Below, in pieces: positions 14,715-31,584 of a DNA stretch of 64,000 nucleotides (position 1 is the stretch's first letter; every line of letters begins with the position of its first letter). The notes below the pieces were generated by a model, which did not search any database, was not told the origin of the DNA, and saw only the letters and a list, made by a program, of their open reading frames with translations. The stretch is from NCBI RefSeq assembly GCF_016918015.1, contig NZ_JAERMK010000005.1:1-64000 (forward strand). The letters are read 5' to 3'. The translations under genes were made by a program, and so were the position numbers. The stretch comes from Glycomyces sp. YM15 (lineage in GTDB: Bacteria > Actinomycetota > Actinomycetes > Mycobacteriales > Micromonosporaceae).

Positions 14715-14792
14715 GCCGCGCGCAGCCGAATGAAGCACGGGCCGAACGCGGCGCACGCGTTCAACCCCGGTGATCCTGCCATGCCCGCGAGA

Positions 14793-16322
14793 TTATCCGG
14801 TTTCATCCGGAGCGTCCACCCGGTTCTCGCGCCTCGCCCGCGGGATGGCCCCTGAGTCCCCGGACGAGTAGCGGCCCGGCACGTGGAGGCGCAGGACCGC
14901 CTCGTTCGCCCACTCGGGCACCGAGCCGGGCCTGGACGCCGCGATCATGACGAGGAACGCGAGTGGGACCGTCCACAATGCCGGTTGCGCGAGGAGCACC
15001 GAGAGGACGCCCGGTTCGAGGTCGAGGACCACCGAGGCGAGCGCCGCCCCGGTAGAAGTGCCCGCGCCCACGAGCAGGCCCGCCGTCGCGCCCGGCGCGG
15101 TGAGGCCGCGCCACCAGATGCCGAGGGTGAGCAGCGGGCAGAACGTGGAGGCGGCCACCGCGAAAGCCCAGCCGACGAGCACGTTGATGTCCACATCGGC
15201 CGCCGGGAGTGACAGCGCCACCGCGAGGGCCGTGCCGACCACGACGCCGAGGCGCAGCCGCGAGAGCGAACCGCCGAACAGGTCGTGCGAGAGGCCCCCG
15301 GCCAGCGCGAGCAGCAGACCCGAAGAGGTGGAGAGGAACGCGGCGAACGCGCCCGCCGCGACCAGCGCGGTCAGGATCGCGCCCACCGTGCCCGGGACGA
15401 TCGCGCCGGGCACGAGGAGCGGCACGACGTCGGTCTCCTCGGGTGTGGGGGTGGCGATGCGGCCGAGGAGGCCGTAGACGACCGGCCACAGGTAGAAGAG
15501 GCTGAGCAGGACGATCACCGAGACGGCGACGCGGCGGGCCGCGCGGGCGCCGGCGACGGTGTGGAAGCGCATCACGACGTGCGGGAGTCCCATGGCGCCC
15601 AACGTGGTCGCGACCAGGACCGAGACGGTGGCGAGGATCGGGTGGCCGGAGCCGTCGAGGTCGAGGAGGGGGCGCGACCAGTCGGGGTCGGCGCTCAGGT
15701 TGAGGGCCGCGTCGCGCGTCTCGGGTCCGGCGAGGGCGATGAGGAAGACCGCGGGCCCGGCGATGAACGCGAGTTTCACCAGGTAGTGGAAGGCCTGCAC
15801 GTAGGTGGCGGAGCGCATGCCGCCGACGGCGATGGTGGAGGAGACCACCAGTCCCGCGCCGACCACGCCGATCCAGTAGGGGATGCCGGAGACGAGTTCG
15901 AGGACGACTCCGGCCGCTTTGAACTGCGGCAGCAGGTAGAGCAGCATGATGACGAGCACGACGAGGCCGCACATGCGGCGGATGCGCGGCGAGCCGAGGC
16001 GGTACTCGGCGAAGTCGGGCACGGTGTACGCGCCGCTGCGGCGCATCGGCCCGGCCGCGAGCGCGGCGACGAGCACGTATCCGGCGGTGAAGCCCACGGC
16101 GTACCACATCGCGCCCACGCCGTTCTTGACGAGCAGCCCGGCGAGGCCGAGGACCGAAGCGGCCGAGACGTATTCGCCCGCGATGGCGAGGGCGTTCCAG
16201 CCGGGCACGATGCTGCGGGAGGCGACCAGGAAGTCCGGGGTGGAGCGTGCGGCGCGCACGCCCCAGACGCCGATGACGACGCTGGCGGCGAGGACCAGGC
16301 TGATCGCGGCGAGGCCGAGCAT
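14793..16322 (-). CDS. Sodium:solute symporter (SSS family), acetate-permease-like
   Basis: A 509-residue polytopic protein, about 13 helices, of the SSS family. The N-terminal SRSIVPGWNALAIAGEYVSAASVLGLAG and the later GMRSATYVQAFHYLVK and GLPHVVMRFHTV segments are the conserved landmarks of ActP/MctC-like carboxylate symporters. It is coupled (TGATG) to the upstream small membrane gene. The pair sits downstream of a LytTR/LytS two-component system and a second SSS transporter. Substrate probably a short monocarboxylate, by family only. Confidence 0.88.
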   Translation of the reverse strand: MLGLAAISLVLAASVVIGVWGVRAARSTPDFLVASRSIVPGWNALAIAGEYVSAASVLGLAGLLVKNGVGAMWYAVGFTAGYVLVAALAAGPMRRSGAYTVPDFAEYRLGSPRIRRMCGLVVLVIMLLYLLPQFKAAGVVLELVSGIPYWIGVVGAGLVVSSTIAVGGMRSATYVQAFHYLVKLAFIAGPAVFLIALAGPETRDAALNLSADPDWSRPLLDLDGSGHPILATVSVLVATTLGAMGLPHVVMRFHTVAGARAARRVAVSVIVLLSLFYLWPVVYGLLGRIATPTPEETDVVPLLVPGAIVPGTVGAILTALVAAGAFAAFLSTSSGLLLALAGGLSHDLFGGSLSRLRLGVVVGTALAVALSLPAADVDINVLVGWAFAVAASTFCPLLTLGIWWRGLTAPGATAGLLVGAGTSTGAALASVVLDLEPGVLSVLLAQPALWTVPLAFLVMIAASRPGSVPEWANEAVLRLHVPGRYSSGDSGAIPRARRENRVDAPDETG

Positions 16323-16672
16323 CAGTGGTCCTCGAGGTATTCGGCTTCGATGCGCTCGGCCCGGCGGACGTGGACCGCGGCGAGGGCCAGCAGGATCGGG
16401 TAGGGCGCGAAGAAGAGCACGGCCCAGCCGAGTCGTCCGGGGGTGACGAACGCGGCGGTGAGCAGGGCTGCGAGGGCGAACAGGAGCGCGGCGGCCGTGC
16501 GGACGGCGAGGCGGCGCTGGCGGCGGAGGGCGCGTTCGGCGTCGTCGAGGTCGATCGCGCTGCGGCCCACCGGGGGGCGGCCTGCGAGGCGGCTGAGGCG
16601 TCCGGTGGCGTCGGACCGGCGGCGCAGGGCGAGCCGGGTCTGGGGGCTGGTGACGCGTACCCGCTGGTTCAC
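16322..16672 (-). CDS. Small two-helix membrane protein, symporter partner
   Basis: A 116-residue protein with an Arg-rich N-terminal half and two predicted helices (about 58-102). It overlaps the downstream SSS gene by one base. By position it parallels the DUF485 subunit of the second symporter unit at 20432, though the sequence is not clearly DUF485. A role in symporter assembly or stability is inferred. Confidence 0.7.
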   Translation of the reverse strand: MNQRVRVTSPQTRLALRRRSDATGRLSRLAGRPPVGRSAIDLDDAERALRRQRRLAVRTAAALLFALAALLTAAFVTPGRLGWAVLFFAPYPILLALAAVHVRRAERIEAEYLEDH

Positions 16673-16742
16673 GGCCGCCTCCCCCCGGTCCGGGTCTTCG
16701 GGCGGCCGCCGTTCGCGACCGCCTCGCCTTGCGCGCCTTGGA

Positions 16743-17492
16743 TCACCGCTGCGCCCCGCCTTCCCTCGCCGCCTGGAGGAGTCGTTCGCGCAGGAGGCGG
16801 GAGTGGCGGCGGCTCACCGGGACCTCGCCGGGTTCGGTGACGGCGACGAGGCCGGCCGTGGAGGTCACGCGCAGTTCGGTGACGTGGGCGAGGTTGATGA
16901 GGAAGGAGCGGTGCGCGCGTACGAAACCGGCCGCGTCCCAGACCTGTTCGAGGTAGGTGAGGGATTGGCGGAGCAGGTGCGAGCCCTGGTTGGAGTGGAG
17001 GCGCACGTAGTCGCCGTGGGCTTCGGCGTAGGCGATGTCGTCGCGGCGCACGAACACGGTGCGTCCGGCGAGCTCGACCTGGACGACGGCGAGGTCGTCG
17101 GCCTTGTCCCCCACCACGGGCGCGGAGCGGCGGCCGCCGATGCGGGCCACCGCTTCGGCGAGGCGCTCGGGTCGGAAGGGTTTCAGCAGGTAGTCGGCCG
17201 CGCCGAGGCCGAAGGCCTCCACGGCGTGGTTGTCGTAGGCGGTGACGAACACGATCTCGGGCGGGTTCGAGAGCCGCCTGAGGATGCGGGCCACGTCCAT
17301 GCCGGTGAGGCCGGGCATCGCGATGTCGAGGAACGCGGCGTCGAACGAGCCGGAGCCGAGGAGGCGCACCGCCTCGTCGCCTCCGGCGGCGGCCACGACC
17401 TCGCCGACGGCGGGCAGTTCGGCGAGCTGGCCGGCGAGTTCGGTGCGGGTGGACGGCTCGTCTTCGACGACGAGCACGCGCAGGCTGCTCAT
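16743..17492 (-). CDS. LytTR-family response regulator
   Basis: A 249-residue response regulator: receiver domain (4-120) with VVEDE, phosphoacceptor D56 (FLDIAMPG) and K103 (YLLKPF), then a LytTR DNA-binding domain (about 145-245). The latter contains DDIAYAEAHGDYVRLH and WDAAGFVRAHRSFLINL. It pairs with the histidine kinase gene upstream at 17599. LytS/LytTR pairs next to carboxylate transporters (for example BtsSR-type systems) sense extracellular or intracellular metabolites; control of the flanking SSS genes is the likely job here. Confidence 0.92.
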   Translation of the reverse strand: MSSLRVLVVEDEPSTRTELAGQLAELPAVGEVVAAAGGDEAVRLLGSGSFDAAFLDIAMPGLTGMDVARILRRLSNPPEIVFVTAYDNHAVEAFGLGAADYLLKPFRPERLAEAVARIGGRRSAPVVGDKADDLAVVQVELAGRTVFVRRDDIAYAEAHGDYVRLHSNQGSHLLRQSLTYLEQVWDAAGFVRAHRSFLINLAHVTELRVTSTAGLVAVTEPGEVPVSRRHSRLLRERLLQAAREGGAQR

Positions 17493-17598
17493 CGGCGTTC
17501 ACTCCGGTTCGGGAAGTGGGCTCGGTGAGGCGGGCGCGCAGCGCCCTCGATGTCGGGTGGAGGCGGGCGACGGGTGGGCGTGTAGGGATGGGGGCCGG

Positions 17599-18684
17599 TC
17601 ATGCGTGCACTCCTCGGGCGTATCTGGGGATTCTCACGGTGGCCTTGGTTCCGGCTCCGGGGGCGGTGTCGAGCCACAGGCCGTATTCGGGGCCGTAGAC
17701 GGCGCGCAACCGTCGGTCGACATTGGCGAGTCCGATGCGTCCGGCGCCTTGGCGGCTGCCGGTGAGGATCGCCTTGGCGGTCTCGGGTTCCATGCCCGCG
17801 CCGTCGTCCTCGACCTCGATGACGCAGAGCGCGCCCTCGGAGAAGCCGCGCACGGCGATGTGGCCGGTGCCGGGCTTCGTCTCGAAGCCGTGGCGCACGG
17901 CGTTCTCGACGATCGGCTGTACGACCAGGAACGGGATGGGCACGGGCAGGACCTCCGGGGCGATGCGGACGGTGATGTCGAGGCGGTCGTCGAAGCGGGC
18001 CCGCTGCAGTTCGAGGTAGGTCTGCACCGCCTGCAGCTCGTCGGCGACCGTGGCGTAGTCGCCGGTGTTCGCGAACGAGTAGCGCAGGTAGTCCGAGAAG
18101 TCGGTGAGCAGTTCGCGGGCGCGTTCGGGGTCGGTGCGGGTGTGGGCGCTGATGGCGGCGAGGGCGTTGTGCATGAAGTGCGGCGAGATCTGGGCCCGGA
18201 GGGTGCGCAGGTCCGCCGCCGCGATGCGCTCGCGCGCCCGGTCCAGGTCGGCGTGGTCGAGCGCGGTCGCCACGAGGTGGGCGGCCTCGGCGAGCTCCCC
18301 GTCGCTCACGTCCCCCGCCACGATCAGGCATCCGGCGAGGTCGCCCGAGACGATGAGCGGCGAGGCCCGCAGCGGCGGGGCCGTGACCGGCTCGAGCACG
18401 TCCAGCGTCTCGACCAGCAGGTTCTGGGCCGCTGCCGGGTCGAGCTCCCCGGCGACGGCGATGACCCGGTCGCAGTCGGCCAGCGCCACGGCGTCGGCCG
18501 CGAGGAGTTTCGCGAGGCGGCGGGCCGCGACCGGCGCGCCCTTGCCGGTGAGGCCGTCGGCGAGGGACTCACCGACCTGGCGGGAGAGCCGGAGGGCGCC
18601 CAGCGTCCCGGTACCGAGCGCGCGTCGGCGCGTCGAGGCGAGCCTCGATGCTCGGAGCGAGGCGGAAAGGCGACCGGGGATCAC
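17599..18684 (-). CDS. LytS-type sensor histidine kinase (soluble)
   Basis: A 361-residue HisKA_7-type kinase. The conserved phosphoacceptor block ISPHFMHNALAAISAH has His169. The ATPase domain shows VVQPIVENAVRHGF (Asn261), DDGAGM and GAGRIGLANVDRRL. The N-terminal 150 residues contain no membrane helix and look GAF-like, so sensing is probably cytoplasmic or through a partner. The GTG start at 18684 is preceded after 6 bases by a -10-like TACAGT, suggesting a leaderless start. It shares a direction with the LytTR gene, 106 bases away. Confidence 0.9.
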   Translation of the reverse strand: MIPGRLSASLRASRLASTRRRALGTGTLGALRLSRQVGESLADGLTGKGAPVAARRLAKLLAADAVALADCDRVIAVAGELDPAAAQNLLVETLDVLEPVTAPPLRASPLIVSGDLAGCLIVAGDVSDGELAEAAHLVATALDHADLDRARERIAAADLRTLRAQISPHFMHNALAAISAHTRTDPERARELLTDFSDYLRYSFANTGDYATVADELQAVQTYLELQRARFDDRLDITVRIAPEVLPVPIPFLVVQPIVENAVRHGFETKPGTGHIAVRGFSEGALCVIEVEDDGAGMEPETAKAILTGSRQGAGRIGLANVDRRLRAVYGPEYGLWLDTAPGAGTKATVRIPRYARGVHA

Positions 18685-18690
18685 GTGTTT

Positions 18691-18696
18691 ACTGTA
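18691..18696 (-). promoter_or_regulatory. -10-like hexamer TACAGT 6 bases before the kinase GTG
   Basis: On the minus strand TACAGT is separated from the GTG start by AAACAC, with no Shine-Dalgarno. No good -35 was found; the terminator hairpin occupies that position. Confidence 0.4.
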
Positions 18697-18713
18697 ACCG
18701 GGCCCACAGCAAA

Positions 18714-18746
18714 GGGCGGGGAGGGCCGCCCCGGCCCTCCCCGCCC
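18714..18746 (-). terminator. 14-bp perfect hairpin after the second symporter gene
   Basis: The arms GGGCGGGGAGGGCC and its complement enclose a 5-base loop, followed on the minus strand by TTTGCT. It lies 10 bases after the stop of the SSS gene at 18756 and separates that operon from the kinase gene. Confidence 0.75.
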
Positions 18747-18755
18747 GCGGGGGGC

Positions 18756-20435
18756 TCAGTGACCCACGGCCCGCTCCGAGCCCGCGCCGGTCAGGGCCCT
18801 CACCTGGAGGGTCGCGAACCGGTCGGGACGGGACTCGGAGGACATCAGCGTGCCGACCACGGCGCAGATGAGTCCGAGCGGGATGGACACCAAGCCGGGG
18901 TTCGACATCGGGAACCATGCGATGTCGACCCCCTCGCCGAGCAGCGAGCGTTCGGTACTTGAGAAGACCGGCGAGAAGATCACCAGTCCGACGGCGGAGA
19001 TGAGGCCGCCGTAGATGCCCCAGACCGCTCCAGCGGTGTTGAACCGCTTCCAGAACAGGCTGAGCAGCAGCGTGGGCAGGTTCGCCGAGGCGGCGACCGC
19101 GAAGGCCAGCGCCACCAGGAACGCCACGTTGAGCGTCTGGGCGAAGATCGCCAGGACGATAGCGACGATCCCGACGCCGATCGCGGCGATCTTGGCGACC
19201 ACGACCTCCTCGCGGTCGGTGGCCGCACCGCGCCGGATGACGCTGTTGTACAGGTCGTGGGCGAGCGACGAGGACGAGGCGATCACCAGCCCGGCCACGG
19301 TCGAGAGGATCGCGGCGAACGCGGCGGAGGCGATGATCGCCAGCAGGACCGCGCCCACCGTCGAACCGCCGAACGCCTCGCCGGCCTCCTGCGCCAGTTG
19401 CGGCGCAGCGGTGTTGCCCGCCGGGTTCTGGGCCGTGATGGCCTCGGCGCCGACCATCGCGGCGGCACCGAACCCGAGCACCAGCGTCAGCAGGTAGAAG
19501 CTGCCGATGAGCCCGATGCCCCAGTTGACGGACTTGCGGGCCGACTTGGAGTCGGGGACGGTGTAGAAGCGGATGAGGATGTGCGGCAGTCCGGCCGTGC
19601 CCAGGACCAGGGCCAGGCCGAGGCTGATGAGGTCCAGCTTGTTCCACATCGTCTGGGTGGCGTCGCCGGCGACTTCGACGCCGTAGCGCTGGCCGGGTTC
19701 GAGGAACGACGCGCCGGCAGCCGACGAGCTGGCGGCGTCGCCGAGCAGGTCGGAGATGTTGAACCCGTACTGGGCCAGGACCAGCAGCGCCAGCAGCGCG
19801 GCCCCGCCGAGGAGCACGATCGCCTGGACGATCTGCACCCAGGTGGTGCCCTTCATGCCGCCGAGCGCGACGTACAGGATCATGAGCAGCCCGACGAAGA
19901 CGATGCCCACGTTCGAGGCCACGTCGGCGTCCATGCCGAGGAACGTCTCGCCTTCCTTGATGCCCAGGAGGAGTGCGATGAGGGCGCCCGCACCGACCAT
20001 CTGCGCGAGCAGGTAGAAGATCGAGACGCTCATGGTCGAGATGGCGGCGGCGGTGCGGACCGGGCGCTGGCGCATCCGGAACGACAGGACGTCGGCCATC
20101 GTGAACCGCCCGGAGTTGCGCAGCAGCTCTGCCACGAGCAGGAGGGCGACCAGCCAGGCGACGAGGAACCCGATCGAGTACAGGAACCCGTCGTAACCGG
20201 AGAGGGCGATGATGCCGGCGATGCCGAGGAAGGAGGCCGCCGACATGTAGTCGGAGGCGATGGCGAAGCCGTTCTGCCAGGGCTTGAATCCGCGGCCGCC
20301 GGAGTGGAAGTCCGTCGCGTCGCGGGTGTGTTTGCGGGCCCAGACCGTGATGACGAGGGTGGCGGCCACCATCAGCAGGAACAGCGCGAAGGTGAGGGTG
20401 CGGCCGGTCTCGGTCTGCTGTGCGAGGAGATTCAT
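18756..20435 (-). CDS. actP: Cation:monocarboxylate (acetate) symporter, SSS family
   Basis: A 559-residue symporter of the ActP/MctC subgroup. Seen: an N-terminal helix, FHSGGRGFKPWQNGFAIASDYMSAASFLGIAG, GYDGFLYSIGF, MKGTTWVQIVQAIVLL and GLPHILIRFYTVPDSK, all hallmark segments. The family takes up acetate, propionate or pyruvate with sodium or protons. The start overlaps the DUF485 gene by 4 bases (ATGA), the usual yjcH-actP-like arrangement. The adjacent LytS/LytTR pair is a candidate regulator. Confidence 0.93.
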   Translation of the reverse strand: MNLLAQQTETGRTLTFALFLLMVAATLVITVWARKHTRDATDFHSGGRGFKPWQNGFAIASDYMSAASFLGIAGIIALSGYDGFLYSIGFLVAWLVALLLVAELLRNSGRFTMADVLSFRMRQRPVRTAAAISTMSVSIFYLLAQMVGAGALIALLLGIKEGETFLGMDADVASNVGIVFVGLLMILYVALGGMKGTTWVQIVQAIVLLGGAALLALLVLAQYGFNISDLLGDAASSSAAGASFLEPGQRYGVEVAGDATQTMWNKLDLISLGLALVLGTAGLPHILIRFYTVPDSKSARKSVNWGIGLIGSFYLLTLVLGFGAAAMVGAEAITAQNPAGNTAAPQLAQEAGEAFGGSTVGAVLLAIIASAAFAAILSTVAGLVIASSSSLAHDLYNSVIRRGAATDREEVVVAKIAAIGVGIVAIVLAIFAQTLNVAFLVALAFAVAASANLPTLLLSLFWKRFNTAGAVWGIYGGLISAVGLVIFSPVFSSTERSLLGEGVDIAWFPMSNPGLVSIPLGLICAVVGTLMSSESRPDRFATLQVRALTGAGSERAVGH

Positions 20436-20791
20436 CGGGCGTCCTCCCCGTAGTGGACCGCGTCGTGGAGTTCAGTGGCCTGCGGGTCGTAATTCCGGGA
20501 CGTGTAGCGGGAGTAGGCCCAGGCGATGCCGAACGTGGAGACGAACTGGCCGAGGCCGAGGAGCAGGGCCACGTTGATGTTGCCGAAGACCACGGTGCCC
20601 ATGAAGTCGCGGGCGTAGGCCGAGAGGAGCACGTAGAGCAGGTACCAGGCGAGGAATCCGATCGTGGCGGGCACGATGAAGCGGAACAGGCGGCGTTTGA
20701 GGTCCACGAAGCGGGGGTCGTCGTGCATCGCCGCGAGTTGATCGTCCGTGACGACGGGAGGGGGTCCGTCGCGGGTGGGGGTCGTAGCCAT
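20432..20791 (-). CDS. DUF485 membrane protein (YjcH-like)
   Basis: A 119-residue protein with two membrane helices and the DUF485 pattern (FVDLKRRLFRFIVPATIGFLAWYLLYV, then GTVVFGNINVALLLGLGQFVSTFGIAWAYS in pieces). DUF485 genes almost always precede actP-type symporters, as here with a 4-base overlap. AAGGAGG lies 8 bases before the ATG. Its exact role is unknown. Confidence 0.92.
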   Translation of the reverse strand: MATTPTRDGPPPVVTDDQLAAMHDDPRFVDLKRRLFRFIVPATIGFLAWYLLYVLLSAYARDFMGTVVFGNINVALLLGLGQFVSTFGIAWAYSRYTSRNYDPQATELHDAVHYGEDAR

Positions 20792-21095
20792 CGGGCCATT
20801 CCTCCTTGAAGGGCTTTATTACTGGGCCTACCCGGGCTGTTCCGCGTCGACGTTTCTGGCGCATGTCGGCGCGGTGACGGGTTTACAAGCAACTTAAGAG
20901 ACCCGAGTGATCTTGAGAAGCATCGATGTGACGCGTGTCGCTAGGGGGCCCGCTTCCTGCGTTGAGGGTGTCGACGAACGGTCGGCGAACGGTCGGCGAG
21001 CGGTCGCATCGGGTTGCGTTCACGCGAACGATGAATCCCGCGCGGCGATCTCGTCTGTACTGGTGAAGGCACCGGAACACCGAAAGGACGGCACG
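20792..21095. other. 304-bp divergent intergenic region
   Basis: It holds the promoters of the DUF485-actP operon (minus) and of the VOC gene (plus). A short direct repeat, GAACGGTCGGC twice with a degenerate third copy, lies at about 20978-21005. I see no coding frame and no clear operator. Confidence 0.5.
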
Positions 21096-21515
21096 ATGGC
21101 CGACAAGATGATCTTCCTGAACCTGCCCGTGAACGACCTGGACGCGGCGAAGGCGTTCTACCAGGAGCTGGGCTGGAGCATCAATCCCGACTTCACCGAC
21201 GAGAACGCCGCCTGCGTCGTCGTGGACGACAACATCTGCCTGATGCTGCTGACCAAGGAGTTCTACTCGACGTTCGCCGAGCGCCCGATCGCCGACACCG
21301 CGGCGTTCTCGGCCGCCGCGTACGCGCTGGCCCTCCCGAACCGCGAGGCCGTCGACGAGCTCACCGACGCCGCGATCAAGGCCGGCGGCACCGAGGAGAC
21401 CTCCAGGCAGGACCGCCGCGCCCAGGAGGCCGAGATCGGCATGTACGGCCGCACGTTCCTCGACCTGGACGGCCACCAGTGGGAGCCGTTCTACATGCCC
21501 TATCCCCAGCAGTGA
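21096..21515 (+). CDS. VOC-family protein (glyoxalase/bleomycin-resistance fold)
   Basis: A 139-residue vicinal-oxygen-chelate protein. IFLNLPVNDLDAAKAFYQELG opens the fold and FLDLDGHQWEPFYM closes it, with a C-terminal Glu as metal-ligand-like residue. This subgroup (PhnB-like, K-M-I-F-L-N) is widespread with unknown substrate. AAAGGAC precedes the ATG. The low-complexity G/C tract begins just after its stop. Confidence 0.85.
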   Translation: MADKMIFLNLPVNDLDAAKAFYQELGWSINPDFTDENAACVVVDDNICLMLLTKEFYSTFAERPIADTAAFSAAAYALALPNREAVDELTDAAIKAGGTEETSRQDRRAQEAEIGMYGRTFLDLDGHQWEPFYMPYPQQ

Positions 21516-21536
21516 GTCCGATAGGAGATCAGGAGG

Positions 21537-21653
<117 letters not shown>

Positions 21654-21684
21654 CCGGCCGCGTCATGGCCTGCGGGCTCGCGCG

Positions 21685-22185
21685 TCAGCCGCAGTGCACT
21701 CGCCGCTTGTCGCTCACGGCCCCTTGACCGTTGCGCCGCTCGATGAGGCCGTAGACGTCGATGCACTTGCCGGACATGTCGAAGCCGGCCTTCGTCCTCG
21801 CGGGCCCGGCGTAGTAGAGGAAGTCCCCGCTGTCGTCGCCGCACAGGCTCCCGTCGGCGTAGCCCGACGGGCAGATCGAGATCGCCTTGAGCCCTTTCCA
21901 GCCGTAGGTCGATCCGGTCCCGATCGCGAGGGCGCAGTTGCGCTTCTCCGTGGAGGACCAGTACAGCTCCACGTAGCCGGCCGGGTCCGACGCCGATCCG
22001 ATCACGTAGGTGTCGATGCGGGTGTACGAGGCGCCGCACAGGTTCGCCTGAGCCCCGGCCTCGGCGGCGGTCGCCGTTCCGGACAGGGTGGCGATCATGA
22101 CGAGGGCGGCGGCGACGCCCAGGAGTCGCGCGGTCCGGCCGTTCGCACGGCGGCGGACGGGTGGGGGCGGATCGGTTCTGGACAT
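21685..22185 (-). CDS. Secreted SapA-like (spore-associated) protein, copy 1
   Basis: A 166-residue secreted protein: Arg-rich N-terminus, hydrophobic signal segment (about 20-41, cleavage near ATAAEA), then a small Cys-containing domain. The pattern is L-C-G-x-S-Y-x-x-I-D, VELYWSSTEKRNCAL, LYYAGPAR, KCIDVYGLIE and a terminal VHCG. This matches actinomycete spore-associated protein A, a small protein found on spores. It shares the same Cys and motif layout with the gene at 24363. GGGAG precedes the ATG. It is divergent from the M23 gene. Confidence 0.8.
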   Translation of the reverse strand: MSRTDPPPPVRRRANGRTARLLGVAAALVMIATLSGTATAAEAGAQANLCGASYTRIDTYVIGSASDPAGYVELYWSSTEKRNCALAIGTGSTYGWKGLKAISICPSGYADGSLCGDDSGDFLYYAGPARTKAGFDMSGKCIDVYGLIERRNGQGAVSDKRRVHCG

Positions 22186-22268
22186 GGCTGCTCCCTTGAG
22201 GTGGTCTGCGATGAGCTGGGAATCTCGTCCAGCTGGGGGGGGAATCCTCCGGACACAGCGAGCGTATC

Positions 22269-22284
22269 GAAGAAATGTTTCTTC
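22269..22284. promoter_or_regulatory. Inverted repeat GAAGAAA-TG-TTTCTTC
   Basis: A perfect 7-bp inverted repeat in the AT-richer divergent promoter region between SapA-like copy 1 and the M23 gene. It is a candidate operator shared by both directions. Confidence 0.45.
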
Positions 22285-22310
22285 AAAGATGCGGTTTCTG
22301 GTGAAGATTT

Positions 22311-22328
22311 CTGTCAGATCCGTGACAG
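22311..22328. promoter_or_regulatory. Inverted repeat CTGTCA-N6-TGACAG
   Basis: A second perfect inverted repeat, 27 bases after the first, in the same divergent promoter region. It is symmetrical enough for a dimeric regulator; no regulator gene is adjacent. Confidence 0.45.
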
Positions 22329-22459
22329 CAACCGGTCGACCTGCGCTCGGAGTTCGGAGCGCCGCAGGAAATTACGAAGCCGGTCGTTCCTATTGGAACC
22401 CGCTCTGGGCCATCATGAGAGAGGTCCCCAAATGCCACATCATCCCACAAGGAGCGGTC

Positions 22460-23374
22460 ATGAGATGGATCCTTTCGAAGCGGCGAGGCCTCCTCGCACT
22501 AGTCGCGGCGGCCCTGATGGGCGCCATGACGGGCCTCACCGCGATGGCTCCGGCGCAAGCCGCGACGGCGCGCAACGGCATCTGCGAGTCCGGTGAGTTC
22601 TGCCTCTACTACAACAGCGACAACCAGGGGTCGGTGAGCGACTTCTCGGGGTCGATCAGCAACTACGGCACCGGCTCGAGCTGCTACGAGTACAAGGGTC
22701 CGGGCGCCGGGCAAGGGCAGTGCGTCAAGAACAACGCGGCCTCCGCCTGGAACCGGACCGGCAAATACGTCACGGTCTTCTACAACAGCGGCTACTCCGG
22801 ACCGATCGACAACTTCAGCCCGGGTGCGCAGGCGAACCTCCGCGCCTACCTGAAGAACGACAACGCCGGGCACCTCGTCAACGCGACGGGCAACGCCGCC
22901 GACAACCTCGAGTACGCGCTGTACCACTCGTCCTCGGCCCACGTCACCGCCTACTTCGACGGATACACCACCACCTCGGGCCGCCACGAAGGCATCGACA
23001 TCGCCCGCGGCGTCGGCTATTCCGTGTACGCACTCGTCTCCGGTACCGTGACCCGCGTGACCGAGGGCTCGCGAGGCTCCGGGGGCCTGTCCACCCTGGC
23101 GGTCTACAACTCGAGTCTCAACAAGACCATCGTCTACCTGCACTTGAATCCGAATGGCTTCAGTGTGGGCAGCTCCATCTCCAAGGGACAGGTCATCGGC
23201 GTCGAGGACTGGCGGGGCATCAGCTCCTCCGGTGGAGCGCACACCCACTTCGAAATGCGGAACGGCAGGGTGACCGCCGCGGCCACCAGCGTCGGCGACC
23301 CCGACCTGACCAACCCGAACCCGACCGGGTTCTGGAAGGCCAGGGGCTACAACATCTGCTGCCAGTTCAGCTGA
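22460..23374 (+). CDS. Secreted M23 metallopeptidase with N-terminal I36 (inhibitor-like) domain
   Basis: A 304-residue exported protein. Signal peptide 1-35 (cleavage near AQA-AT). Residues about 38-150 form a Cys-rich peptidase-inhibitor I36/crystallin-like domain (CESGEFCLYYNSDNQG, VTVFYNSGYSG). Residues 155-300 form an M23 LytM-type domain with zinc ligands H176 and D180 (RHEGID), H228 (YLHL) and H261/H263 (GAHTHFEM). M23 enzymes cut peptidoglycan cross-bridges. AAGGAG precedes the ATG at 22460. The I36-M23 fusion may bind or self-inhibit at the wall. It leads the secreted cassette. Confidence 0.87.
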   Translation: MRWILSKRRGLLALVAAALMGAMTGLTAMAPAQAATARNGICESGEFCLYYNSDNQGSVSDFSGSISNYGTGSSCYEYKGPGAGQGQCVKNNAASAWNRTGKYVTVFYNSGYSGPIDNFSPGAQANLRAYLKNDNAGHLVNATGNAADNLEYALYHSSSAHVTAYFDGYTTTSGRHEGIDIARGVGYSVYALVSGTVTRVTEGSRGSGGLSTLAVYNSSLNKTIVYLHLNPNGFSVGSSISKGQVIGVEDWRGISSSGGAHTHFEMRNGRVTAAATSVGDPDLTNPNPTGFWKARGYNICCQFS

Positions 23375-23395
23375 CCCTCCGCATCCGCACACAGC

Positions 23396-23437
23396 AGGCA
23401 GTCCGCACGGCCTCACCGCGAGCGGTGCGGACTGCCT
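23396..23437 (+). terminator. 13-bp hairpin after the M23 gene
   Basis: AGGCAGTCCGCAC pairs perfectly with GTGCGGACTGCCT around a 16-base loop, 22 bases after the M23 stop. It lies before the TTG start of the next gene, so it may reduce rather than stop read-through. Confidence 0.6.
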
Positions 23438-23486
23438 TCGCCGCGGGTCGCACCGCGTCTTCCGAAACCGCCAGAGGAGACACCTC

Positions 23487-24347
23487 TTGAACGAACATCG
23501 CACACCGACGCGCCGCCGGCTCATCACGGCAGGCCTGGCCGCCGCGGGCGCGGCGGCCCTGCCCCAGCTCTTCGCCGATCCGGCCACCGCCCAGACCTCC
23601 GTCGACATGGAGCTGGTCCTCGTGGCCGCCACCGTCGACCCTCCCAAGTCCGGCCAAGGGACCACCCTGAACGCCGGGCCGCACGTCCAGGCGGTGGAAG
23701 CCGCGCTGGCCGCCAAGGGCCACCTCAACAGCGCCCTCGTGGACGGTCACTACGGAAGCTCGACCGTCACCGCCTACGCCGCTTGGCAGCGGGCACTCGG
23801 GTACAGCGGCATCGACGCCAACGGACTGCCCGGCCCGACCTCGCTGACCACGCTCGGCCGGGACGAGGGCTTCACCGTCAGCCGCGTCGTCAGCATCGGC
23901 TCCAGGAACGACGCGTACAGGGGCGTGCGGGTCAACACCCGGACCAGGAACATGCTCGCCGCCGCCGACGCGAAGGTGAGTTGGAACCTCACGCTGTCGC
24001 AAGGCTCCTACAACCCGGGAGGGGACCCCACCTCGGCCGGCACGCACGACGGCGGCGGCGTGGTCGACGTCGCCGTCGACGGATGGACGAGCACGCGGCG
24101 CTGGAGGACGGTACGAGCGCTGCGCGAGGTCGGCTTCGCGGCCTGGCTGCGCACGCCCTCGCAAGGGAACTGGCCCTACCACATCCACGCGGTCGCGGTC
24201 GCCGACACCGACCTGTCGGGCCCGGCCCAGCCGCAGGTGCACGACTACTTCTTCGGCAAGAACGGCCTGGCGAACCACGCCGCCGACAACACGCCGCCCG
24301 AATACCAGGTGGGCTTCACCTGGTGGGAGCAGTACAACCGACTCTGA
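23487..24347 (+). CDS. Tat-exported peptidoglycan-binding/M15-like peptidase
   Basis: A 286-residue protein with a twin-arginine signal (TRRRLITAG, 8-16; hydrophobic to about 36). A peptidoglycan-binding-1 domain (about 60-125) follows. The C-terminal domain resembles M15 D-Ala-D-Ala peptidases: GTHDGGGVVDV places H187 and D194 seven residues apart, and YHIHAV gives H232/H234. The usual catalytic Glu before the last His is not evident, so activity is uncertain. The start is TTG with AGAGGAGA upstream. SapA-like copy 2 follows after 15 bases. Confidence 0.78.
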   Translation: MNEHRTPTRRRLITAGLAAAGAAALPQLFADPATAQTSVDMELVLVAATVDPPKSGQGTTLNAGPHVQAVEAALAAKGHLNSALVDGHYGSSTVTAYAAWQRALGYSGIDANGLPGPTSLTTLGRDEGFTVSRVVSIGSRNDAYRGVRVNTRTRNMLAAADAKVSWNLTLSQGSYNPGGDPTSAGTHDGGGVVDVAVDGWTSTRRWRTVRALREVGFAAWLRTPSQGNWPYHIHAVAVADTDLSGPAQPQVHDYFFGKNGLANHAADNTPPEYQVGFTWWEQYNRL

Positions 24348-24362
24348 CAAGGGAGCAACACC

Positions 24363-24842
24363 ATGTCCGAAACAGCACGACTCGACCGACCGCGGTCCAT
24401 CGGCAGGCGGATCACTGGGACGCTCGCCGCCCTGTGCCTGGCCGTGACGGCCCTGCTCGCCACCGGCAGCGCGGCGACGGCCGACGTCACCGCCCAGGCG
24501 AACGTCTGCGGATCGTCATTCGCGCTCATCGACTCCTACTACGGCAGCGGCAACGGCCACACCGCGGTGCTGCGGCTGTACTACTCGTCGACGTACAAGC
24601 AGAACTGCGCCGTGATGGTGAAGACCAACCAGACCGACCACAAGGACCAGGTCGGCGTCCAGATCAGGCCGAGCGGCGGCACCGTCGACAGTGAGAACGA
24701 CTGGTTCTACTCGTACGCCGGGCCCGTCTACACCCCCAGCAGCGTCAACATGTCCGGCAAATGCGTGGACGTCCACGGGTTCGTAGGCGGCGCCTTCGAA
24801 ATCTTCTTCCAGATCGAGGAGCGCGGCGTGCACTGCGGCTGA
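24363..24842 (+). CDS. Secreted SapA-like (spore-associated) protein, copy 2
   Basis: A 159-residue secreted protein with a signal segment ending near residue 41 (ATADV). The mature domain shares the layout of the 21685 gene: QANVCGSSFALID, LRLYYSSTYKQNCAV, FYSYAGPVY, MSGKCVDVHGF and terminal GVHCG. It follows the M15-like gene by 15 bases, with AAGGGAG before the ATG, so the two are probably co-transcribed. Function in streptomycetes is only loosely known (spore surface); a cell-wall or surface role is inferred. Confidence 0.8.
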   Translation: MSETARLDRPRSIGRRITGTLAALCLAVTALLATGSAATADVTAQANVCGSSFALIDSYYGSGNGHTAVLRLYYSSTYKQNCAVMVKTNQTDHKDQVGVQIRPSGGTVDSENDWFYSYAGPVYTPSSVNMSGKCVDVHGFVGGAFEIFFQIEERGVHCG

Positions 24843-24873
24843 GCAACGGTCAGCAGTAGACGCACGCGGTAAC

Positions 24874-24911
24874 CCGTAGGGCCGCACCGCGTTCGCGGTG
24901 CGGCCCTACGG
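24874..24911. terminator. 17-bp perfect bidirectional hairpin
   Basis: CCGTAGGGCCGCACCGC and its exact complement enclose the loop GTTC between two convergent genes (stops at 24842 and 24920). It can end transcription from both sides. Confidence 0.85.
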
Positions 24912-24919
24912 CACTTCGG

Positions 24920-25303
24920 TCAGCTCGGCTGCTGCGGATCTGTCGGAGGCGGAGGATTCCCGGGTGCCTGCGGTGGTGTTCCGGGCGGGTACGGAGGCTG
25001 CTGCGGACCGCCCTGCGGCGGCGGGTACCCCTGCCACGGCTGCGGACCGCCAGGAGGCGGGTACCTCGGCGGGAAGGACTGCTGCTGCAACTTCTTCTTG
25101 GAGGAGTTCGTGACGAGCACGACCGTCAAGACGATCGCACCGATCACCACCACCAGGCAGAACAACAGGATCAGCACGTACCTGGGCAGCAGGGCGCCCA
25201 AGTCGAAACCGTCGTTCGTGGGTTCGGGCAGTCGTGAGCTCTCATCGGGCAACTCGTCCACATTGGGGCCTCCGTTCGGGCGAGCGGCGTGGTCCCCCAT
25301 CAT
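24920..25303 (-). CDS. Small single-pass membrane protein with Pro/Gln-rich tail
   Basis: A 127-residue protein: acidic N-terminus, one membrane helix (about 40-64, LLPRYVLILLFCLVVVIGAI), a basic stop-transfer SSKKK, and a C-terminal tail of PP-G/Q-rich repeats. The topology would put the low-complexity tail on the basic, probably cytoplasmic side. No family recognised. Two adjacent ATG codons at 25303 and 25300 could start it. Confidence 0.65.
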   Translation of the reverse strand: MMGDHAARPNGGPNVDELPDESSRLPEPTNDGFDLGALLPRYVLILLFCLVVVIGAIVLTVVLVTNSSKKKLQQQSFPPRYPPPGGPQPWQGYPPPQGGPQQPPYPPGTPPQAPGNPPPPTDPQQPS

Positions 25304-25333
25304 CCCAGGCCCGGAGGCTCCTGTGAAGGACCC

Positions 25334-25789
25334 TCAGGAGTGGACGCAGAATTCGTTGCCTTCGGGGTCCCGCATGACGATCCACTCGGCGGGGCCTTCG
25401 CGGAGGCGGTCGCCGGCGCGGGTGGCGCCGAGGGCCTCGAGGCGTTCGGTCTCGGCGTCGATGTTGTCGCGGCCGACATGGAGGTCGAGGTGGAGGCGGT
25501 TCTTCACGGTCTTGGGCTCGGGCACCTGCTGGAAGAGGATCCGCATGCCCTGGCCCGCGTCGGAGGCCGGGTCGAAGGGGTCGTCGGGGTTGCGGATCGC
25601 GGCGAGGGTCTTCCAGGCGCGGCGTCCGTCGACCTCGGTGAGGAGGTCTTCGGTGATGATGCCCTGGGAGAGGAGCCCGGCGATGAACGACGAGTGGTCT
25701 TCGAGCTTGTAACCCATGGCCTCGGACCAGAACGCCGCGAGGCGGTGGGGGTCGGCGCAGTCGATGACGATCTTGAAATGGACAGGCAT
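25334..25789 (-). CDS. VOC-family protein
   Basis: A 151-residue glyoxalase-fold protein (FKIVIDCADPHRLAAFWSEAMGY, LHLDLHVG, MRDPEGNEFCV). This subgroup, with a C-terminal DPEGNEFC, is frequent in actinomycetes and of unknown substrate. It lies between the Pro-rich membrane gene and the sigma factor, all on the minus strand, but a hairpin separates it from the sigma gene. Confidence 0.87.
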   Translation of the reverse strand: MPVHFKIVIDCADPHRLAAFWSEAMGYKLEDHSSFIAGLLSQGIITEDLLTEVDGRRAWKTLAAIRNPDDPFDPASDAGQGMRILFQQVPEPKTVKNRLHLDLHVGRDNIDAETERLEALGATRAGDRLREGPAEWIVMRDPEGNEFCVHS

Positions 25790-25833
25790 GCCGCGAGCGT
25801 AAGCCCGGGGTACGACAGTGTCCTCGAAACGAG

Positions 25834-25861
25834 GACCGCCCCGCCGTGATGCGGGGCGGTC
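25834..25861 (-). terminator. 11-bp hairpin after the ECF sigma gene
   Basis: GACCGCCCCGC pairs with GCGGGGCGGTC around CGTGAT, 6 bases after the sigma-factor stop. A GTTTC stretch follows on the minus strand. Confidence 0.6.
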
Positions 25862-25867
25862 TCCGGG

Positions 25868-26839
25868 CTATTCGCGGTATTCCAGGGGGAGACCGAAGAG
25901 CGGGAAGAGCTTCGGAGTGTCCAGGAAGTAGTTGAGGCCCGAGATCTTGTCGCCCTCGAGTTCGAGGACGGTGATCGACCAGGGCTCCCAGAGGCCGGGC
26001 GTGCCGCTCGGCTTGTAGTGGCCGAAGGCCGGGAGGCCGTTGGCGCTGACCGGGACGAGCTTGGAGTTCTCGCAGCCCTTGCCGGTGGTGAGCATGAACT
26101 CGGCGACGCTCGCGTGGCCCTGGACCCACAGCGGGATCGGCGGCATGGAGAGGGCCACGTCCTGCGTGCACAGGGCGGTGAGCGCTTCCATGTCATAGGC
26201 CTCGAAGGCGCTCACGTAGCCGTCGACGAGCTTGCGGAGATCGGCGTCGTCGATCGTGTAGGACTCGTCCGGTTTCGCGTGGACCTGCTCCATGGTGGCC
26301 TTGGCCCGCTGCAGCGCGGAGTTGACGCTCGCGGGGCTGAGCTGGAGCGCCTCGGCGGTCTCGGCGGCCGAGAAGCGCAGCACCTCGCGCATGAGCATCA
26401 CGGCCCGCTGCTTGGCGGGCAGGTGCTGGACGGCGGCGACGAACGCGAGCCGGAGGGTGGCCTTCGCTTCGACGGCCGCGGCCGGGTCGGCCCCGAACGC
26501 CATCGAGTCGGGGATCGGCTCGACCCACAGGTAGTCGGGCTCGGGAGCCGGCAGGGGCGTGCCCGCGTCGGAGGCGGGGGCGAGGTCCATCGGGCGGGCC
26601 CGCCGCTGCGGGCCCTTGAGCATGTCGAGGCACACGTTCGTGGTGATCTTGTAGAGCCACGAGCGCAGCGAGGAGCGGCCCTCGAATGACCCGTGGGACT
26701 TCCACGCGCGGGTGAAGGCCTCCTGCACGGCGTCCTCGGCCTCGAAGGAGGAGCCGAGCATGCGGTAGGCGTACGCGCAGAGTTCACGCCGGTGGGGTTC
26801 GAACTCGGCGAGTACGTCGTCTCCGATCGCAACGTTCAT
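25868..26839 (-). CDS. ECF sigma factor with C-terminal SnoaL-like domain (SigG/SigX5 type)
   Basis: A 323-residue sigma-70-like factor. Region 2 (about 10-80) shows LCAYAYRMLGSSFEAEDAVQEAFTRAW and SWLYKITTNVCLD. Region 4 (about 140-195) has LPAKQRAVMLMREVLRFSAAETAEALQLSPASVNSALQRA in pieces. The last 125 residues are a SnoaL/NTF2-like domain. In these extended ECF factors the extra domain replaces an anti-sigma partner, and none is adjacent here. Its regulon is unknown. ATG at 26839. Confidence 0.9.
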   Translation of the reverse strand: MNVAIGDDVLAEFEPHRRELCAYAYRMLGSSFEAEDAVQEAFTRAWKSHGSFEGRSSLRSWLYKITTNVCLDMLKGPQRRARPMDLAPASDAGTPLPAPEPDYLWVEPIPDSMAFGADPAAAVEAKATLRLAFVAAVQHLPAKQRAVMLMREVLRFSAAETAEALQLSPASVNSALQRAKATMEQVHAKPDESYTIDDADLRKLVDGYVSAFEAYDMEALTALCTQDVALSMPPIPLWVQGHASVAEFMLTTGKGCENSKLVPVSANGLPAFGHYKPSGTPGLWEPWSITVLELEGDKISGLNYFLDTPKLFPLFGLPLEYRE

Positions 26840-26946
26840 GAGCACAGCCTCGCACAGGCCCCCGACATTCGCGGCGACGGTTTCGGAAATCTGATCCGCC
26901 GGGCCGCAAGGTGTCCCGAATACGCCCTTGCAGCGCAGGGAAAATC

Positions 26947-28974
26947 CTATTTGTTCCGCTGGTGGTCGCTCATCCAGCGCTCGAACGCGTCCGCGTCCAT
27001 CGGGCGGGCGAAATGCCAGCCCTGCCCGGCGTGGCAGCCCCAGCCTTCGAGCTGCTTGCGGACCTTCTCGTCCTCCACGCCCTCGGCGACGACCTCGACG
27101 TCGAGGGCCCGGCCCAGGTCGATCGTGGTCGAGACGATCGCGGCGTTGTCCGGGTCGTCGATCAACGTGGTCACGAAGGACTTGTCGATCTTGATCTCGG
27201 TGACGGGCAGGCGGCGCAGGTGCTGCATCGAGGAGAAGCCGGTGCCGAAGTCGTCGAGGCTGATGCCCACGCCGAGGTCGGAGAGTCGCTGCACGTTGAC
27301 GACCACGCGGCGGGGGTCGGCCATGAGCGCGGACTCGGTGATCTCCAGCTGCAGCTTCCGGGCGTTCACCCCGTAGGCGTCGATCCGCTCGGTCAGGAAG
27401 TCCGTGAACTCGGGCGACTGCAGGTCGCGCACCGAGACGTTCACGGCCATGCGCAGGTCGTAGCCCGATTCGTTCCAGGACCGGAGCTGGCGCAGGGCGA
27501 TGTCGACGACCCGCTCGGTGAGCATCCGCATCACCGAGGAGTGCTCGGCGGTCTCGATGATCTCGGCCGGGTTGACGATCCCGCGCTCGGGGTGGTGGTA
27601 GCGCAGCAGGGCCTCGGCGCCGATGACCTCGCCGTCGACCAGGCGCACCTGAGGCTGGTAGTAGAGGTTGACGCCGGGGGTGTCCGGGTGGTCGAGAGTG
27701 CGGCGCACGTCGCCGAGGAGGAGGAGCCGCTCGGGCGAGTTGTGGTCGAACTCGGGCGCGTAGCGGGCGAAGGAGGAGGCGCGCTGCTTCGACTCGTACA
27801 TCGCGATGTCCGCGTGGCGGAACAGGGTCTGGAAATCGGAGCCGTCGTCGGGATAGACCGCGACGCCGACCGAGCCGTCCACCTCGACGCTGGCGTCGCC
27901 GAGGACGATCGGGGCGTCCAGCCGGGCGCGGATCTCGCGTGCGCACTCCATCGGGTCGGTCATGCCGTCCAGTTCGGACCACATGAACGCGAACTCGTCG
28001 CCGCCGAGGCGCGCGATCGCCTTGCCCTTCGGCTTGTCCGACTCGAAGCGGTGCGCGAGCTCGGCCAGCAGCTGGTCGCCGACCGCGTGGCCGAGCGCGG
28101 AGTTGACGTCGGCGAAGCGGTCGAGGTCGAGGATGAGGACCGCGACGGCGGTGCCGGTCTCGGCCGCGTCCGTGAGCTTGCCGTCGACGGCCTGCTGGAA
28201 GCCCTTGCGGTTGAGCAGACCCGTGAGCGGGTCGTGGTCGGCCTCGCGCTCGCGGTCGGCGGCGGTCTGGAGGATGCGGTACACGGCGAAGATGGGGATC
28301 GCCGAGGCCGCGACCAGCCACCAGGAGGCGGTCGCGGCGGTCGCGACGATGGGCGCGATCGCGATCTGCGTGGCGCGCAGCGCCCATTCGCTCTTGAACC
28401 ACTGCCAGAACAGCGGAAGCCATCCCTCCCCGGTGCGGAGGCTCTGCCGGCCGGCGACGAGCGCGAAACTCGTCAGCGTCCAGACCGAACCGGCGGCGAA
28501 GATGGCGAGCAGCTGCGTGGCCTCGCCGCTCCAGGCCGCGCCCTCGACGACCGCATCCCACACGTACCAGGCGAGGACGAGCGCGGCCGCCTGCTGGGAG
28601 ATGTTGAAGACCGCCCGCCACGTGGAGGCCTTGAGCTGGATCATCAGCATCCCGATGGCCGCCGACTGGACGATCAGCGCGGGCAGGAAACCCCAGGTGA
28701 TCATGGTGGCGAGGACGTACACGAGGTAGATCGACGCCATTGGCGACATCCACAGCCCGCCCCAGCGGGTCGGGCGGAGCTCGGCGACCATGGCGAGACC
28801 GGCGGTGAGCCAGAAGGCGAAGGGCACGCCGAACCAGCCGCCCTCGGGCACGCTGCTCGTAACGGTCACGGCGGCACTGCCGGCGATCGCGAATATCGCG
28901 ACCACCGCCATGAAGCCGAAGTACCGGCCCGGATGCTCTTTCGGCGCAGTGTTGCGCATGAGCGTCGTGGCCAT
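26947..28974 (-). CDS. Membrane GGDEF-EAL c-di-GMP protein, RmdB-like
   Basis: A 675-residue protein: about 6-8 membrane helices (1-235), a GGDEF domain (about 245-400, intact GGDEF in RLGGDEFAF) and an EAL domain (about 420-665, intact EALLR, NVSVRDLQ, DDFGTGFSS). Both synthesis and hydrolysis of c-di-GMP are possible from the motifs. Its position beside ligA matches streptomycete rmdB, whose product is a c-di-GMP phosphodiesterase affecting development; orthology is inferred from synteny and domain order. The ATG at 28974 has a GGGAGGAG site. Confidence 0.92.
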   Translation of the reverse strand: MATTLMRNTAPKEHPGRYFGFMAVVAIFAIAGSAAVTVTSSVPEGGWFGVPFAFWLTAGLAMVAELRPTRWGGLWMSPMASIYLVYVLATMITWGFLPALIVQSAAIGMLMIQLKASTWRAVFNISQQAAALVLAWYVWDAVVEGAAWSGEATQLLAIFAAGSVWTLTSFALVAGRQSLRTGEGWLPLFWQWFKSEWALRATQIAIAPIVATAATASWWLVAASAIPIFAVYRILQTAADREREADHDPLTGLLNRKGFQQAVDGKLTDAAETGTAVAVLILDLDRFADVNSALGHAVGDQLLAELAHRFESDKPKGKAIARLGGDEFAFMWSELDGMTDPMECAREIRARLDAPIVLGDASVEVDGSVGVAVYPDDGSDFQTLFRHADIAMYESKQRASSFARYAPEFDHNSPERLLLLGDVRRTLDHPDTPGVNLYYQPQVRLVDGEVIGAEALLRYHHPERGIVNPAEIIETAEHSSVMRMLTERVVDIALRQLRSWNESGYDLRMAVNVSVRDLQSPEFTDFLTERIDAYGVNARKLQLEITESALMADPRRVVVNVQRLSDLGVGISLDDFGTGFSSMQHLRRLPVTEIKIDKSFVTTLIDDPDNAAIVSTTIDLGRALDVEVVAEGVEDEKVRKQLEGWGCHAGQGWHFARPMDADAFERWMSDHQRNK

Positions 28975-29310
28975 TTCGCTCCTCCCACTGCCGCGCCGGC
29001 TCCGGGTGACGCGCCAGAATCACCCGGGGTCGGTCGCGGCCGACTCCTCTGTCATATCGCGAATTCCGCTCCCACACAACGCCGGGAGCACATGCGGCAC
29101 ACTTGTGACCAGGCGCGACATGCCAATTACAGAAACCGTTATCCGGTGTTCACCGCAGCGACTCCCGTGGCCGGTTCCGGGCTCGGCGGCCCTTTCGGGC
29201 GATGGGAACCGAGCCGTTGGTACGACGGGGGCAAGCATCCACGAGATGACTCTGCCCTGAACTAACGAGTCTCCCCCCGTAAAGGAATACGGATCGTTAC
29301 CGAGTTGTGA
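28975..29310. other. 336-bp intergenic region upstream of the GGDEF-EAL gene
   Basis: It carries the promoter of the GGDEF-EAL gene and the 3' side of ligA. A small hairpin CGGGTG/CACCCG lies near the GGDEF start. An AT-richer stretch at about 29125-29145 (CCAATTACAGAAACCGTTATCC) could hold the promoter. No c-di-GMP riboswitch core was recognised and no coding frame is convincing. Confidence 0.5.

Positions 29311-31584
<2,274 letters not shown>

Follow-up and report, generated by a model that had tools for sequence, protein, structure and literature searches.

We analysed a window of 64,000 nucleotides from Glycomyces sp. YM15 (G000:C45:1-64000, within a 5.67 Mb genome), and focused on a cassette of four genes in it: two for SapA-like proteins (named for spore-associated protein A; SapA-A and SapA-B), one for a protein joining Inhibitor_I36 and M23 domains (I36-M23), and one for an M15-like protein (Table 1). 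All four open reading frames (ORFs) were intact in the ORF list where the original prediction had placed them. A positional-GC gene caller of a simple type recovered the same four, three with later starts; this caller failed to call the known I36-M23 gene in locus L141. The start codon of the M15-like gene was TTG, preceded by AGGAGA. Leaders were judged by eye from hydrophobic stretches and, in the M15-like protein, an RRR motif, and on these features all four proteins are predicted to be exported. The Pfam TAT_signal model gave the M15-like protein 13.6 bits, under its cut-off of 22.7.

Table 1 Features of the SapA/I36-M23/M15-like cassette (positions in the window).
Feature	Coordinates	Strand	Description
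SapA-like A (SapA-A)	21685..22185	-	ORF; SapA-family protein with leader, 166 aa, divergent from the other three genes; 38% identical to SapA-B; C50, C84, C141, C165 and YAGP motif
Divergent intergenic region, presumed promoters	22186..22459		Inverted repeats at chance level (85/200 shuffles); upstream of 22449 no DNA similarity to L164
I36-M23	22460..23374	+	Leader, N-terminal I36, C-terminal M23 metallopeptidase domain, 304 aa; PF03995 1.5e-14, PF01551 9.8e-12; H176-x3-D180, H261-x-H263
Hairpin, putative attenuator or terminator	23396..23437	+	Directly 3' of the I36-M23 stop; 16-nt arms, one mismatch, 10-nt loop; 0/200 shuffles
M15-like	23487..24347	+	Tat-type leader, peptidoglycan-binding domain, C-terminal Hedgehog/DD-peptidase-type zinc domain, 286 aa; H187-x6-D194...H232-x-H234
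SapA-like B (SapA-B)	24363..24842	+	ORF; SapA-family protein with leader, 159 aa; starts 15 nt past M15-like; C49, C82, C134, C158
Perfect 18-nt hairpin, presumed terminator of three-gene unit	24874..24911		3' of SapA-B; 0/200 shuffles

I36-M23 passed both Pfam cut-offs (M23, PF01551, 45.4 bits against 28.7; Inhibitor_I36, PF03995, 54.1 against 21.1), and its M23 zinc motifs were complete in HEGID (H176, D180) and HTH (H261, H263). The M23 part had lysostaphin among its PDB relatives and resembled SpoIIQ weakly (NCBIfam 4e-6; 26.6 bits against a cut-off of 250). In a family survey of 150 genomes, I36-M23 was found in 30 at E ≤ 1e-15, with 12 full-length matches and the remainder to the I36 part alone. 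PF03995 by itself was present in 97/150 genomes, and therefore its adjacency, not its presence, is informative.

The I36 domain was not confined to M23 proteins. Pfam assigned CHAP to 18, SpoIID to 15, M23 to 13 and NlpC/P60 to 2 of 53 I36 proteins, made up of 52 from M15-like loci and the one in the window, after four I36 ORFs <170 aa had been left out. CHAP proteins are cysteine hydrolases and SpoIID proteins are lytic transglycosylases. We prefer a binding or targeting role for I36 because a metallopeptidase inhibitor would not suit such enzymes; the predicted fusions to CHAP and SpoIID argue against peptidase inhibition as a general role, and the 'inhibitor' label may mislead in these bacterial operons. 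Within loci, we compared 19 pairs of I36 domains, with enzyme types assigned by crude motifs. The I36 DNA was 96-100% identical between two different enzymes of one locus in L230 (and its double L251), L242, L249 and L250, where the catalytic parts of the pairs in L230, L242, L249 and L250 shared 14-35% protein identity. In L237, L239, L242, L249 and L250, I36 resembled that of its operon partner more than that of the same enzyme type in other loci. In the remaining pairs, for at least one member the I36 of the same enzyme type in another locus was no more distant than that of its partner. The pattern looks like gene conversion that occasionally keeps one I36 tag per operon and is not a general rule. 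In another Glycomyces genome, a protein of 636 aa carries four I36 matches in tandem (L247 1845-3755, G069:C13).

No Pfam M15 model matched the M15-like protein at E ≤ 1, and its C-terminal domain had no Pfam match. Its peptidoglycan-binding domain was matched by PG_binding_1 at 2.1e-4, slightly under the Pfam cut-off, and by the NCBIfam model PG_bind_siph at 4.7e-9, also below cut-off. The zinc motif HX6D...HXH was kept across 87 aligned relatives (H187 in 86/87 with one gap; D194, H232 and H234 in 87/87), and H-X6-D ... H-X-H is the motif given for Hedgehog/DD-peptidases in PMC6027127. An AlphaFold2 (AF2) model of the protein had a predicted local distance difference test score (pLDDT) of 89.8. 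Foldseek aligned it in part to the lytic transglycosylases SltB3 and SltB2 (best E 0.097), which we take to involve the peptidoglycan-binding domain of the model, and the C-terminal fold gave weak matches to Hedgehog N domains (E 0.38 or worse, probability up to 0.85). Other Foldseek matches included an L,D-transpeptidase (probability 0.82) and, in last place, the M15-type endolysin LysECD7 (E 6.0, probability 0.09). The best PDB match by sequence was 1lbu (E 0.06, confined to the peptidoglycan-binding part), which we take to be the Streptomyces albus G Zn DD-peptidase, an M15A enzyme with the same domain order. The claim that the cassette encodes two cell-wall peptidases held for the M23 enzyme, with its complete motifs and Pfam matches, and in part for the M15-like protein, which lacks a Pfam M15 match and has the conserved Hedgehog/DD-peptidase motif and a predicted fold with a weak resemblance to Hedgehog. 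The latter protein may bind zinc and may be active. It was found in 61 of the 150 survey genomes at E ≤ 1e-10, and a plasmid search with it returned nine records, one covering 80% of the query.

SapA-A and SapA-B were confirmed as paralogues (E 2e-29; identity in Table 1), and share four cysteines and the YAGP motif with the family. Both fell below the cut-off of every Pfam and NCBIfam model. The SapA label was reached via one intermediate: SapA-B matched a homologue in genome G111 (E 1.6e-6, 33% identity), and that homologue matched 16 plasmid records, five of them annotated as spore-associated protein (A). A plasmid search with SapA-A itself returned five records, none annotated SapA; a single-sequence scan of genome contigs with SapA-A gave 146 stretches and no relative, and a PDB profile search with SapA gave nothing below E 0.3. 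The AF2 model of mature SapA-B (pLDDT 90.0) had eight strands and was all-beta save for three N-terminal residues. Its top Foldseek match in the PDB was a CBM56 carbohydrate-binding module (E 0.027, template modelling score 0.42/0.50), and against viral models nothing appeared below E 0.01.

At E ≤ 1e-3, SapA-A was found in 54/150 and SapA-B in 76/150 survey genomes, many of the matches lying within long ORFs. We scanned 30 multidomain SapA proteins with Pfam (26 from survey loci and 4 from named loci, drawn solely from the returned best loci), and the partner domains were M23 in 19, protein kinase in 7, GH71 in 1 and M28 in 1. A hydrophobic stretch lay between kinase and SapA in each of the seven proteins taken as the kinases (mean hydropathy 2.5-3.1; four were confirmed on re-scanning), as expected if the SapA domain faces outward. 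The kinases with a C-terminal, apparently extracellular SapA domain were in L020, L032, L041, L050, L053, L057 and L062, and such proteins could be sensors of wall material, an alternative to PASTA domains. An M23-SapA fusion was also encoded in the genome of the window, on another contig (L244 3899-4813). By its domain contexts, SapA occurs both on its own and as a portable domain placed mostly at the C-terminus. The original prediction had suggested that SapA-like proteins might act as partners, inhibitors or coat components of the hydrolases; the last two roles were weakened, as SapA also occurs on kinases, GH71 and M28, and therefore a module binding the wall or another ligand fits better than a protease inhibitor. 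Stand-alone proteins of L130-L132 (genomes G088, G052 and G110) were considered as SapA and excluded from the counts, having been matched by an iterated profile alone. With a clean profile of 29 SapA rows, the L130 protein scored E 0.012 and the L131 protein 1.2; neither the L132 protein nor a second L128 protein (8149-8592) was listed. Two distant SapA proteins were counted, L128 7586-8047 (1.8e-6) and its relative in L226 (5e-8).

The families were neighbours well beyond the window. By survey coordinates, the M15-like gene was paired with a partner family in ten genomes besides that of the window, and an I36-SapA pair occurred in another. Gene orders varied: SapA-M15 in L124, M15-SapA in L125, M15-I36M23 in L126, M15-I36M23-I36 in L127, SapA-M15-I36 in L128, and I36 divergent from SapA in L134. 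We then scored named loci fetched with the M15-like profile A3, in which 10/16 rows came from L124-L133, loci chosen for co-location; these ten were excluded from the following count and included in the tree, the residue counts and the I36 Pfam scan. The fetched loci were the best 80 of 330 relatives, and 75 were scored (no M15-like protein was called in L183, L190, L208, L209 or L210). Within 3 kb of the M15-like gene, I36 was present at 22/75 loci, SapA at 9/75 and either at 27/75. In the 3-8 kb bands, I36 was present at one locus and SapA at none, despite more flanking sequence (697 against 445 kb). SapA was ~2.5 kb away in two of its nine cases (L205 and L215, with other genes intervening in L205), and the nine include L226 with its distant SapA. 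The Winogradskya locus L220 had the M15-like gene, I36-M23, SapA and SapA all in one direction, which is the four-part content of the window. M23-SapA fusion proteins adjoined the M15-like gene in L194, L214 and L225, and M15-like genes stood beside I36-CHAP, I36-SpoIID or I36-M23 genes in Kitasatospora, Actinomadura, Janibacter and others. In a class sample of 246 genomes, 21 had any M15-like match at 1e-20 (own genome included), and five of the six full-length M15-like loci outside the window's genome adjoined an I36 protein. The proposed co-occurrence of SapA-like and peptidase genes was borne out in other genomes, where SapA and M23 are even fused.

The named relatives of the window's M15-like gene were Glycomyces, the closest being G. 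xiaoerkulensis at 82% identity (best 80 of 330 relatives), whose locus (L164) matched window positions 22449-24340 at 80% DNA identity. A tree of 86 M15-like proteins was built by a quick method with Shimodaira-Hasegawa approximate likelihood ratio test (SH-aLRT) support alone. It paired the window protein with that of G. xiaoerkulensis (SH-aLRT 99) inside 17 Glycomyces rows, and the I36-rich clade was elsewhere on the tree. To explain adjacency, the tree requires four changes, gains or losses, for I36 and ten for SapA. In three other Glycomyces loci (L138, L139 and L140), I36-M23 was kept and no M15-like gene adjoined it. On the simplest account, I36-M23 became paired anew with a paralogous M15-like gene in this lineage, with SapA either added later or lost in G. 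xiaoerkulensis. A second M15-like gene of the window's genome (L163 6840-7721, G000:C12) grouped with other Glycomyces and had no I36 or SapA neighbours.

We favour, with modest confidence, a reading of the locus as one assembly of a modular secreted toolkit with which actinobacteria remodel peptidoglycan, built from hydrolases and wall-binding tags. The zinc M23 domain of I36-M23 would cut peptide cross-links; the M15-like protein would hold the wall through its peptidoglycan-binding domain and trim or cut stem peptides with its Hedgehog/DD-peptidase-type zinc domain. I36 and SapA would be non-catalytic, cysteine-containing and interchangeable tags for the wall or another extracellular glycan, supplied in cis (I36-M23, I36-SpoIID, I36-CHAP, M23-SapA) or in trans as stand-alone SapA. 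SapA-A and SapA-B may target the same sites on the wall, thereby localising, shielding or modulating both enzymes. For SapA, a binding module is more likely than an inhibitor or coat protein. Extending this, we tentatively suggest that SapA is a wall-glycan-binding family acting as an address label or sensor: in cis when joined to M23, GH71 or M28 or to the outer ends of kinases, and in trans by recruiting or masking M15-like and I36-tagged hydrolases. I36 would be a second tag, which gene conversion in some strains keeps uniform across every hydrolase of an operon; this extension is possible, and we would not lean on it. Wall binding gives both SapA and bacterial I36 domains a testable role. 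The enzymes themselves are of known kinds; their recurrent combination of M15-like protein, I36-tagged hydrolases and SapA was not found described in the open-licence papers searched.

Several observations count against the toolkit reading. For the enzymes, Foldseek of the M15-like model yielded no match under E 0.09, and in the 87 aligned relatives neither position examined as a site for the catalytic base (-6 and -3 from H234) held a conserved acid. Position -6 from H234 was D in 38/87, N in 21, a gap in 24 and S in 4, and position -3, the catalytic-acid site of M15 enzymes (E177 equivalent), was D in 1/87. On these alignments the M15-like protein may be no peptidase, and a structural equivalent of the acid could possibly lie elsewhere, for example at the invariant D240, D242 or E281. 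The CBM56 match of SapA was weak, and beta-glucuronidases, fibronectin type III domains and nanobodies came next (best 50 of 765). For the association, 48/75 named loci had neither I36 nor SapA within 3 kb and 66/75 had no SapA there; 15/17 Glycomyces M15-like rows, including the second copy in the window's genome, had neither partner. Only one of the six class-sample loci had SapA (L252, divergent and beside M15-like and I36-M23), three of the six came from one genus (G165, G236 and G289), and L251 and the named locus L230 almost certainly represent one record, as their contigs are equally long and their I36 domains 100% identical. The changes counted on the tree may reflect loss of a pairing that was ancestral. 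SapA was also absent from the closest locus, L164 (best tblastn E 0.05), which has the enzyme pair without it, and SapA is therefore optional. Co-location and fusions support the idea of a functional module, of which SapA is not an obligate member.

In favour of chance neighbours, loci without partners are frequent both among Glycomyces and among the named set; the distance profile, the repeated association and the fusions make chance very improbable. More weight belongs to the idea that I36 and SapA are inhibitors or pro-domains, I36 keeping M23 latent in cis and wall-located SapA-A and SapA-B checking the hydrolases until the right stage. PF03995 is named for peptidase inhibitors, and small cysteine-containing leader proteins encoded beside hydrolases suit an inhibitor layout. 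It nevertheless seems unlikely to us, as I36 is found on CHAP (18/53) and SpoIID (15/53) and not only on M23 (13/53), and a metallopeptidase inhibitor is not expected to block the former two; SapA likewise occurs on kinases, GH71 and M28 besides M23, and the closest locus does without SapA.

The cassette might instead be a lysostaphin-like weapon or scavenging kit that lyses the walls of competitors, with SapA or I36 for targeting. The M23-SapA fusions, a catalytic M23 followed by a C-terminal domain, have a lysostaphin-like layout, the M23 part counts lysostaphin among its structural relatives in the PDB, and the distribution is patchy. The cognate immunity gene of lysostaphin-type enzymes is of the FemABX type, and none was found by Pfam among 13 flanking proteins (window 13801-33174), the rest of the genome not having been searched. 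SapA on kinases also points to the cell's own wall, and we judge a weapon improbable. A module specific to the sporulation or hyphal wall would be compatible with the toolkit reading, which leaves timing open. PMC7042404 reports SapA of Streptomyces coelicolor from aerial hyphae and from spores, related operons encode SpoIID domains, and the M23 part is weakly SpoIIQ-like. Against such a restriction, SapA is also secreted into liquid culture, where PMC8752130 describes its function as unknown, and the promoter region is not conserved in L164. A sporulation-specific role is conceivable and somewhat doubtful. Both reported locations of SapA fit the toolkit reading without proving it.

Compared with described systems, the window proteins combine familiar parts differently. 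SapA-A and SapA-B resemble S. coelicolor SapA (SCO0409) as small proteins with a leader whose family homologues are annotated as spore-associated protein (A) on plasmids, but their genes adjoin wall peptidases, family members form the C-terminal domains of M23 proteins and kinases, and homology was reached through an intermediate and not from SCO0409 directly. I36-M23 is like lysostaphin and LytM-type M23 enzymes in joining a complete M23 catalytic domain to a separate accessory domain. That domain, however, is an N-terminal I36 here (a C-terminal SapA in relatives), and no SH3 was among the Pfam matches. The M15-like protein shares with 1lbu, assuming its identity as above, and with Hedgehog/DD-peptidases the pairing of peptidoglycan-binding and zinc domains, HX6D...HXH and a weak Hedgehog N fold match, and it differs from the M15A enzyme in having no Pfam M15 match, a sequence match in the peptidoglycan-binding part alone and no conserved acid at the two checked positions. 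The Kitasatospora, Actinomadura and Janibacter neighbourhoods place the same M15-like family beside I36-CHAP, I36-SpoIID or I36-M23, whereas the window has the M23 type alone, upstream of the M15-like gene, with a SapA gene on either side of the pair.

Intergenic repeats and hairpins were scored against 200 dinucleotide shuffles. The original prediction had placed two inverted repeats in a shared divergent promoter, and these did not rise above chance: the best repeat in 22186-22459, GAAGAAA-TG-TTTCTTC, was equalled by 85/200 shuffles. We rejected the repeats as operators on that count, and the GAAGAAATGTTTCTTC palindrome was found nowhere else in the genome within two mismatches. The significant hairpins were instead the two downstream of I36-M23 and SapA-B (Table 1), each of which beat every shuffle. 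The plus-strand genes I36-M23, M15-like and SapA-B would form one transcription unit ending at the second hairpin, a presumed terminator, with SapA-A read divergently; the first hairpin may attenuate transcription and so lower expression of the genes downstream of I36-M23.

The same 13 flanking proteins were housekeeping or regulatory in kind by Pfam. They include glyoxalases, symporters with a LytTR-type two-component pair, an ECF-type sigma factor, a GGDEF-EAL protein, DNA ligase and PhoX. A glyoxalase gene and SapA-A converge, and between their ends lies a tract (21538-21652) with a run of 35 G, mixed G and then a run of 44 C. G-then-C tracts recur in the genome, for example at C9:31673-31750, with at least 277 forward and at least 126 reverse overlapping G 20-mers. 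They are artefacts of assembly where hairpins are strong, or else an unusual class of element resembling terminators. The sole further run of at least 10 G or C in the window was one of 29 C (54082-54110).

M15-like genes close to actinobacterial ones also occurred in L183, a record named Microbulbifer rhizosphaerae that encodes a GH71-SapA protein too, and in L235, a metagenome-assembled genome named Lysobacterales. The proteobacterial naming is probably contamination or misnaming, and otherwise would indicate transfer. Several M15-I36 operons, and one tandem pair of SapA genes, had as a neighbour a gene for a protein with an NBR1-type Ig domain (PF16158; L127 4646-5515, L129 4790-5830, L131 7972-8760, L155 5063-5857 and L130 4959-5474), and 3/5 of these proteins also had an HTH_31 match. 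These proteins are possibly membrane-bound regulators that sense the wall.

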